Shown: positions 3,705-5,303 of the stretch, piece after piece | Position numbering within the stretch: the first letter of the stretch is position 1 | Layout of the letters: each line of letters opens with the position of its first letter | Assembly (NCBI GenBank): GCA_022450595.1 | Contig: JAKUPT010000016.1 | Span: 1-50,643 of the forward strand | Reading direction: 5' to 3' | DNA: 50,643 nt | From: Bdellovibrionales bacterium | Lineage (GTDB): Bacteria; Bdellovibrionota; Bdellovibrionia; Bdellovibrionales; UBA1609 | Position numbers and translations under genes: made by a program | The notes under the pieces: model-generated | Database searches by the model: none | The model's input: the letters and a program-made list of their open reading frames with translations, nothing else | Told to the model about the DNA's origin: nothing

Positions 3705-4091
3705 ATGAGCTTTAGAGTGCCAGAAGAAAATTATTATTCTAAAAACCACGAGTGGGCCTACGTCGACGAAAACACTGTGACTGTTGGTATTACCGATTAT
3801 GCTCAAGATTCATTGGTAGAAATAGTATTTGTTGAGCTTCCAGAAGAGGGCTCTAAAGTCTCTCAAAGTGAGCCCTTTGGTGTGGTTGAAAGTGTAAAAA
3901 CCAGCAGTGATTTATTTGCTCCCGTTTCAGGCACAGTGATTGAAGTGAATCAATCAATTGTTGATGATCCAGGCACTTTAAATGATGACCCAATGAACGA
4001 TGGCTGGATGATCCGTATAGAGATGGACACAGAAAAAGAATTAGCCAATTTGATTCGTGCTCCAGAATACAAAAAATTAATTCAAGACTAA
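3705..4091 (+). CDS. gcvH: Glycine cleavage system H protein
   Basis: Lipoyl carrier that shuttles the aminomethyl intermediate between GcvP, GcvT and the dihydrolipoamide dehydrogenase. It is 128 residues, the normal size. The lipoylation site is K65 in GVVESVKTSSDL, and the N-terminal KNHEWAYV and GITDYAQDSLVEIVFVELPE segments are typical. The ATG is preceded by GAGGAG overlapping the gcvT stop region, and the 10-base gap points to co-transcription with gcvT. No lipoate-attachment gene lies nearby. Identification is secure. Confidence 0.97.
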   Translation: MSFRVPEENYYSKNHEWAYVDENTVTVGITDYAQDSLVEIVFVELPEEGSKVSQSEPFGVVESVKTSSDLFAPVSGTVIEVNQSIVDDPGTLNDDPMNDGWMIRIEMDTEKELANLIRAPEYKKLIQD

Positions 4092-4156
4092 GCATTAGGG
4101 CTTGCCAAATAGCCCCTATTGCTTTAAACCCTGTATTTCAGTTTTAAATTTTAAGT

Positions 4157-4241
4157 GCGGGTGTGGTGAAATTGGCAGACACGCTAGACTTAGGATCTAG
4201 TGCCGAGAGGCATGGGGGTTCAAGTCCCTCCACCCGCACCA
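4157..4241 (+). tRNA. tRNA-Leu (anticodon UAG)
   Basis: A complete class II tRNA can be folded by eye. The acceptor strands are GCGGGTG (4157-4163) and CACCCGC (4231-4237), followed by discriminator A and an encoded CCA at 4239-4241. The anticodon stem CTAGA/TCTAG encloses loop CTTAGGA, giving anticodon UAG for CUA leucine codons. A short variable arm (TGCC...GGCA) and a GGGGG-TTCAAGT-CCCTC T arm follow. It lies 65 bases after gcvH and may be read through from it or have its own promoter. Confidence 0.97.
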
Positions 4242-4243
4242 TT

Positions 4244-4265
4244 CATTTTGCCCGAGGGCAAAATG
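4244..4265. repeat. Perfect palindrome directly after tRNA-Leu
   Basis: Ten-base perfect inverted repeat CATTTTGCCC / GGGCAAAATG with only GA between the arms, beginning three bases after the encoded CCA. It has no T run of its own and abuts a second, different hairpin (4267-4297). It may help 3' processing or stop transcription together with the second element. Confidence 0.7.
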
Positions 4266-4266
4266 A

Positions 4267-4297
4267 GTCCGCCGAAGCTTCGCGAAGGCGACTTTTT
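4267..4297 (+). terminator. Probable intrinsic terminator after tRNA-Leu
   Basis: Arms GTCCGCC (4267-4273) and GGCGAC (4287-4292) pair with one bulge around a GC-rich core made of two overlapping palindromes, CGAAGCTTCG and CTTCGCGAAG. A TTTTT run follows at 4293-4297. The hairpin plus T-run arrangement fits Rho-independent termination of the gcvTH/tRNA transcript. Confidence 0.6.
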
Positions 4298-4373
4298 CTT
4301 ATTCCCAATTCTTATGTTTTCATTACTTAATTTTAAATAGTCCAAATGAAACAGCTTTATAAGGTCACAGCCC

Positions 4374-4790
4374 ATGCTTCAACAAATAAACATTAACTTA
4401 TTTATCCTAACAATTCTTATAATTCAATCCGGCTGCAGTGTTTGGAATGCCAAAAATATAAAACAAAGCCCTATTGAGAATACAAAAATTCTTAAGCCAG
4501 TACCTGCTGCAAACTGTAGAGCGGGCGACGTTAGAAAGGGCTACCTGCAGCCCATTGTCAATGGCCTTGAGCGCTGTACAACAACATCTCAAACTTGTCA
4601 GAAAGGACATTGGATGGGTCCCGTCCTTTATACGACTTGTGAGAACCCTACAGAGTTTTGTGATTCTAATCACCCTCATGGCAGTGTGCAAACCGGCTTC
4701 ACGAGTCTTTCAGCTCCTTGTATTCAAACATCAAGAACATGTATTGATGGAAAATGGAGTGGCCCAAAGTTGCATAAATTTTGTAACTAA
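4374..4790 (+). CDS. Lipoprotein with two exact 48-residue cysteine repeats
   Basis: Unrecognised 138-residue lipoprotein. The N-terminus is a short signal peptide with lipobox QSGC, lipidated at C21. The mature part is a tandem duplication with a strict cysteine frame: C48, C68, C75, C89 and then C96, C116, C123, C137, each exactly 48 residues apart. Both copies end in the pattern TC-x2-G-x-W-x-GP-x-L-x4-C. Eight cysteines in a mature protein of about 118 residues suggest four disulfides per molecule, hence an oxidising, exported location. The ATG has only a weak AAGG upstream. A membrane-protease-like gene begins 33 bases downstream. The function is unknown; I offer no enzymatic assignment. 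Confidence 0.75.
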   Translation: MLQQININLFILTILIIQSGCSVWNAKNIKQSPIENTKILKPVPAANCRAGDVRKGYLQPIVNGLERCTTTSQTCQKGHWMGPVLYTTCENPTEFCDSNHPHGSVQTGFTSLSAPCIQTSRTCIDGKWSGPKLHKFCN

Positions 4791-4823
4791 AAACTTATTT
4801 GTCTTAACAGGGGATGAATTTTT

Positions 4824-5303
4824 TTGAAGAAATTAATTCATATATTTTTAATCGTTATAGTATTTTTTCTTTTAATAGCGCCATTATTAACTTTAATTCA
4901 TGAGCTAGGCCATGCTGTTATACCATTGTTAAAAAATGATAAAGTCAGTATTCATATAGGTTCAGAGGTATTATTTAAAAGTGAATTTGGAGATCTAACT
5001 TTATCATATGGTAACCCATACCAGCCATGGATTGGTTATACTCACTGGAATAACTATAACGGTATATGGGCAATAATTTTAGGTCCAATGTTTTCACTGT
5101 TTATAGCTATCATTTTATTTTATATAAGTTTAAAAATTAAATCTAAATTTATATTAAGTTTTTTAATATACATGGCTATTGGATGGTCGGGATTTCAGTT
5201 TCTTTTTACATCACTTCCATTAAGTTACCCAAAAGAAATGGGATATCCAGCTGAAACTTATAGTGATGGTATGAGAATCTATGAGTATTTCAACAAACGA
5301 TAA
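4824..5303 (+). CDS. Small membrane protein with HELGH motif (M50-like)
   Basis: A 159-residue integral membrane protein. Hydrophobic segments span roughly residues 5-25, 80-102 and 108-130. HELGH at 26-30 is the HExxH zinc motif of site-2-protease-like (M50) proteins, and a GP dipeptide at 87-88 and SDG at 147-149 loosely recall the family's second and third motifs. It is much shorter than true S2P/RseP proteins and lacks a PDZ domain, so substrate and activity are uncertain. The start is TTG, supported by AGGGGATG 8-15 bases upstream. The gene is very AT-rich compared with its neighbours and lies 33 bases after the cysteine-repeat lipoprotein, with which it probably forms an operon. Confidence 0.65.
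   Translation: MKKLIHIFLIVIVFFLLIAPLLTLIHELGHAVIPLLKNDKVSIHIGSEVLFKSEFGDLTLSYGNPYQPWIGYTHWNNYNGIWAIILGPMFSLFIAIILFYISLKIKSKFILSFLIYMAIGWSGFQFLFTSLPLSYPKEMGYPAETYSDGMRIYEYFNKR

Follow-up and report, generated by a model that had tools for sequence, protein, structure and literature searches.

A two-module, probably lipid-anchored cysteine protein of a Bdellovibrionales bacterium and the uncatalogued module family to which it belongs

Behind a tRNA gene of a Bdellovibrionales bacterium (GenBank assembly GCA_022450595.1, contig JAKUPT010000016.1; the whole stretch of 50,643 nucleotides that was analysed is called the window here) lies a short gene whose product raises the question of what it is built from and what it may do at the cell envelope. 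A preliminary description, made from the DNA alone, had read it as a lipoprotein carrying two copies of an unrecognised cysteine module held in an exact 48-residue frame, and had proposed a surface binding or inhibitor system together with the neighbouring HELGH membrane protein. Translation of 4374-4790 places cysteines at residues 21, 48, 68, 75, 89, 96, 116, 123 and 137, and the last eight form two sets of four with an offset of exactly 48, in agreement with that reading. The features are collected in Table 1.

Table 1. Features of the module gene and its surroundings, in window coordinates.
Feature	Position	Strand	Basis
tRNA-Leu (TAG)	4157..4241	+	often found behind gcvH across the order; what comes after it varies
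CDS, 138 aa, two-module cysteine (probable lipo)protein	4374..4790	+	ORF translation, orthologues
Signal peptide MLQQININLFILTILIIQSG, aa 1-20, of an atypical lipid type (K/R absent, -3 occupied by Q)	4374..4433	+	sequence
Cys21, predicted site of lipid modification (next residue Ser)	4434..4436	+	sequence, inference
Tether, aa 22-47, mostly predicted disordered	4437..4514	+	pLDDT <50 in mature residues 1-18
Module 1, aa 48-89, C1-C2-C3-C4 spacing 20/7/14	4515..4640	+	profile match E 4e-17
Module 2, aa 96-137, spacing 20/7/14 (orthologues 19 or 23/7/14)	4659..4784	+	profile match E 1e-14
HELGH membrane protein, 159 aa, M50-like by weak match	4824..5303	+	PF02163 E 0.048, below cut-off

When aligned, the two copies (42 residues each) are identical at 12 positions, almost all of which lie within TC-x2-G-x-W-x-GP-x-L-x4-C. 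The best ungapped self-match of the protein scores 65; shuffling the mature sequence 3000 times gave at most 47, and 3000 shuffles with every cysteine kept in place gave at most 54. Eight randomly placed cysteines fell on a single offset in only 5 of 200,000 trials. The internal duplication is real. Orthologous two-module proteins, some with clear lipoboxes, were found in the genomes G079, G073, G126, G290, G223, G218 and G347, and the loci compared in detail comprise L055, L056 and L057, from Bdellovibrionota assemblies, and L151, L152 and L154, from another family of the phylum. Between species, copy-1 modules are 39-50% identical to each other and copy-2 modules 35-59%, whereas copy 1 and copy 2 within one protein share 33-41% (all pairwise). 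Copy-1 modules are thus mostly closer to their counterparts in other species than to their own copy 2, which bears out the proposed old age of the duplication. Copy-1 and copy-2 rows also fall largely apart in a 17-module tree, which rests on few columns; L158 and copy 2 of L055 are the exceptions. The two copies most likely arose before the lineages that carry the orthologues diverged.

The proposal that the 48-residue frame itself is under constraint did not survive this comparison. All six orthologous loci keep C2-x6-C3-x13-C4 as well as C4-x6-C1', and the distance from C1 to C2 varies: in copy 1 it is 20 except in L057, with 23, and in copy 2 it is 23 in L055, L056, L057 and L151 and 19 in L152 and L154, the window alone having 20. 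Variable spacing among homologues is what the preliminary description itself had named as evidence against its frame. Because C1-C2 differs among orthologues while C2-x6-C3-x13-C4 is fixed, the equal offset is largely accidental. Over 291 module matches of the family, 206 of them distinct, C1-C2 ranges from 16 to 30 and is most often 27, and C2-C3 is 7 in 251 of the 264 modules with C3-x13-C4. As judged from these alignments, the constrained feature is the C2-C3-C4 half of the module and not the exact frame.

A profile of eight lipoprotein modules also matches multi-copy proteins in the phylum, and its alignment with a second profile, built on nine repeats of long repeat proteins, gave an hhalign probability of 95.2 (E 2.8e-8, 43 columns). 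The repeat of these long proteins, here called canonical or L-type, reads approximately SC-x-[FP]-x-G-x-x-[IV]-x-HG-x2-V-x-A-[FY]-x-x-S-x-V-x-[YF]-G-x2-C-x3-x-R-x-C-x-[ND]G-x-LSG-x6-C. Both window modules have the features that define the family, C2-x6-C3-x13-C4 and, in the stretch from C3 to C4, G-x-[L/W]-x-G. The mark of the canonical subgroup, a C1-C2 distance of 27, is present in 217 of 249 modules and absent from both window modules, where the HG-x2-V-x-A-[FY] segment of that subgroup is partly matched. In a tree of 61 modules, rough given such short sequences, the eight modules of the four two-module proteins included (window, L055, L056 and L057) form one group (97/90), which adjoins one-module lipoproteins from other genomes of the order and is separate from the L-type repeats found in long proteins. 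By these comparisons the window modules belong to a divergent branch, here called W-type, of a larger module family. The W-type branch conserves GxWxGP beyond the cysteines, and almost all complete modules of the family keep all four cysteines, the apparent losses being mostly truncated matches.

A scan with the canonical profile at E <= 1e-4 detected modules in 68 of 291 Bdellovibrionota genomes, the richest of which has 23, and the lipoprotein-type profile matched in 45 of 369 genomes (E <= 1e-3), some of these matches being canonical repeats. No further copies were found in the window's own genome by profile search, and no relative of the module turned up among viruses and phages at the sensitivity used. 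The recurrence that had been expected in many lipoproteins of the predatory phylum was therefore observed. The module is not confined to predators, because it occurs on two gammaproteobacterial plasmids, one from Allochromatium tepidum and the other from Methylomagnum ishizawai.

The window protein had no match in Pfam, NCBIfam or PDB sequences, no Pfam or NCBIfam model covers the module in the proteins that carry it, an approximate consensus of the canonical repeat gave no Pfam match, and a literature search returned no description of the module, which had likewise gone unrecognised in the preliminary description. That the family is real and uncatalogued is well supported by these profile comparisons. 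AlphaFold modelling of the mature protein, run together with three orthologues, gave a mean pLDDT of 79.9; residues 1-18 came out as disordered and each module as a small beta domain. A single module (copy 2 of L056, eight sequences) was modelled with three strands at pLDDT 94.7 and pTM 0.66. Foldseek searches of PDB and viral models, with the pair and with the single module, returned nothing significant.

Two known folds deserve comparison, since tandem small disulfide modules are of a kind familiar in animals. Sushi/CCP (SCR) domains resemble the module in being small beta domains with four cysteines that end in C-x2-G-x-W-...-C, and in occurring both as tandem arrays and as accessory domains of extracellular proteins. 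Several of the weak Foldseek matches of the two-module model (E >= 0.19, probability <= 0.15) were CCP pairs of factor H, and Sushi_2 fell just below the cut-off on one multi-copy module protein. The C2-C3 distance of CCP domains is, however, far longer than the 7 of the module, and membership was rejected given these weak scores and the lack of a Pfam Sushi match on the window protein; the single-module Foldseek search found no CCP. Cyanovirin-N (CVNH) shares tandem repeats of about 50 residues, a TC-x-N-x4-G-x2-L-x4-C hairpin and the same C-x13-C spacing, but has two cysteines per repeat instead of four. It was the top PDB sequence match of the module profile, at E 0.26 over 19 aligned residues of one hairpin, and kinship was rejected on that score and the lack of a Pfam or Foldseek match. 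A deltaproteobacterial locus (L058), which we take to be a MopE-like cysteine repeat protein of the deltaproteobacterial secreted type, also carries a TC-x2-G-x-W-like motif in an extracellular protein. It was excluded from the family because its E of 2e-4 comes through the motif and its DNDCDG-type repeats have a different cysteine frame.

Is the protein anchored in the envelope? A bacterial lipobox is recognised by K or R in the first seven residues and one of [LIVMFWSTAG] at -3, with a hydrophobic core followed by [AGS]-Cys at positions 15-35. The protein starts with MLQQINI, with no K or R in these seven residues or anywhere before the hydrophobic core, and its lipobox IIQSGC has Q18 at -3, outside the permitted set. 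In LFILTILIIQSGC, the hydrophobic core is followed by an [AGS]-Cys pair at Cys21, within the expected range. Textbook lipoboxes occur in two orthologues (LAGC in L055, LLGC in L056), and none was seen by eye in L057 and L154. The window protein is probably a lipoprotein, as judged from this signal and its orthologues. Of the lipid-anchored pair of small cysteine-rich domains that had been proposed, the pair of domains holds and the anchor is only probable, the signal being atypical.

A signal start, a disordered tether, two cysteine-rich beads and the lack of any catalytic family suggest a non-catalytic role in the envelope. The reading that we prefer, tentatively and at a little under an even chance, is that of an envelope-anchored, non-catalytic binding lipoprotein. 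Such a protein would be small and exported, probably anchored by lipid in the outer membrane and presumably exposed at the surface, where a disordered tether of about 25 residues would hold two tandem beta modules of some 45-50 residues each. Each module would probably be stapled by two disulfides (DsbA-family proteins are encoded in the window's genome), and the modules may thereby act as rigid, protease-resistant beads for a putative ligand, be it a surface, a glycan or a protein, with the conserved G-x-W-x-GP hairpin as a candidate contact face.

The architectures in which the module is found bear on this choice. One-module lipoproteins of about 95-150 residues and two-module lipoproteins occur next to arrays of up to 15 modules, often in proteins that start with an FQNC-type lipobox; two lipoprotein-like frames (L054 2535-5564 and L110 1616-4714, of 1009 and 1032 aa) carry 15 consecutive modules each. 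Long arrays of similar modules in FQNC-type lipoproteins suit a stalk as well as they suit binding, and together with the compact domain and the constant C2-C3-C4 spacing they are the case for a spacer, in which disulfide-stapled beads would hold the protein or a distal domain off the membrane with no specific binding. We consider such a spacer unlikely for the window protein, with a modest share of the probability. Binding is preferred because the window protein and its orthologues, with only two modules, have no distal domain to display and because the W-type branch conserves G-x-W-x-GP besides the cysteines.

In longer proteins, and there as canonical L-type modules and not those of the W-type branch that holds the window protein, the module stands beside an alpha-galactosidase (glycosidase) and DUF4214 (L109), astacin and DUF4214 (L071), Big_13 Ig-like domains (L096, L107), PA14 (L097), TIG (L093), fn3 and GBS Bsp-like parts (L059), cytochrome/PSD (PSCyt/PSD) domains (L094, L103) and, by a match below cut-off, choice-of-anchor C (L100). 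Such a spread over arrays, pairs, single modules and accessory positions is typical of a mobile accessory domain of extracellular proteins, and the module appears to be a general extracellular building block of Bdellovibrionota, single, paired, arrayed or accessory on surface enzymes and pilin-like proteins. On the plasmid of Allochromatium tepidum (L059, 3554-7018) the GBS Bsp-like protein is annotated as starting at 4649, but the modules precede that position in the same open frame, so the start has probably been placed too far downstream. In two genomes, module lipoproteins also adjoin cyanophycinase-like genes (S51-type, by eye), at L053 2550-3898 and L161 2572-4818; at L053 the module gene directly follows on the same strand.

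Three further proteins (L016 1120-2877, L039 373-2169 and L045 1135-2805) have a type IV pilin-like N-terminus with four modules at the C-terminal side, and they are candidate pilus-tip or minor-pilin adhesins by their architecture. The MIDAS adhesin Bd0875, with predicted disulfides, and the MAT fibre proteins of Bdellovibrio are surface-exposed and used at the prey interface (PMC11003981, PMC10769870). These are likewise surface proteins of a predator, but their architecture is unlike that of the module proteins, and no mention of the module was found in the papers that describe them.

The inhibitor option of the preliminary description would make the modules small disulfide-rich protease or lysozyme inhibitors that shield the envelope. 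Predatory bacteria need protection against their own hydrolases, and the modules are small, cysteine-rich, tandem and probably lipid-anchored, as such inhibitors might be. Yet library searches of the window protein and of the module proteins returned no known inhibitor family, and fusion to astacin and to a glycosidase in the same chain fits an accessory binding domain better, which leaves this option improbable.

The genomic site offers a last line of evidence. The module gene is preceded by gcvT and gcvH, with the tRNA-Leu (TAG) between. Genomes of the order commonly have a tRNA-Leu no more than 1.5 kb behind gcvH; among the genomes examined, only that of the window has the module gene and the HELGH gene after it. 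By eye, other genomes have a serine recombinase (L130/L131), a ParE-like toxin (L126) or a nucleotidyltransferase-like gene (L120/L123) there. Since the genes after the tRNA-Leu differ between genomes, the region (window 3705-5303) is suggested to be an insertion-prone site. No attachment site, in the form of a direct repeat of the 3' end of the tRNA-Leu, was found in the window. Another two-module orthologue, in G290 (L161 4275-4818), starts just after a tRNA-Leu (CAA). The window gene was probably acquired horizontally: this fits best because its nearest relatives lie outside its order, in family f18 (G218, 58% identity over 97 residues; G223, 44%), and no two-module orthologue was found in the other searched genomes of its own family. 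Repeated loss is a possible alternative.

The HELGH protein, which has an SDG motif near its C-terminus, lies on the same strand after a gap of 33 nt, and both genes follow a tRNA-Leu that other genes follow in relatives. This arrangement would suit a two-gene unit in which the lipoprotein is paired with an M50-like membrane protease, as its substrate or as a sensor. The HELGH protein has, however, one homologue in 368 other Bdellovibrionota genomes (G225, 32% identity), with no module beside it; no HELGH gene was found near the orthologues in G290, G223, G218 and G347, and G079 and G073 have no homologue. Given that single homologue with no adjoining module, a conserved partnership is unsupported, the proposed system with the HELGH neighbour finds no backing, and we regard a two-gene unit as quite unlikely.

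Beyond the window protein itself, a wider and more speculative possibility, to which we give rather low credence, is that the module is an extracellular recognition domain, a bacterial analogue of sushi, from which Bdellovibrionota would build lipoproteins that bind prey or surfaces, tips of a pilin-like kind and accessory domains of enzymes. The short W-type lipoproteins might then be its simplest binding unit, moving between lineages at tRNA sites. In any case, a compact, confidently predicted module that is present in about a quarter of the sampled Bdellovibrionota genomes lies outside Pfam, NCBIfam and PDB. With a domain model of its own, several hundred repeats would be annotated in the surface proteins of predatory bacteria and their relatives, some of them pilin-like or linked to enzymes, and this would offer testable candidates for functions in the envelope and in contact with prey.
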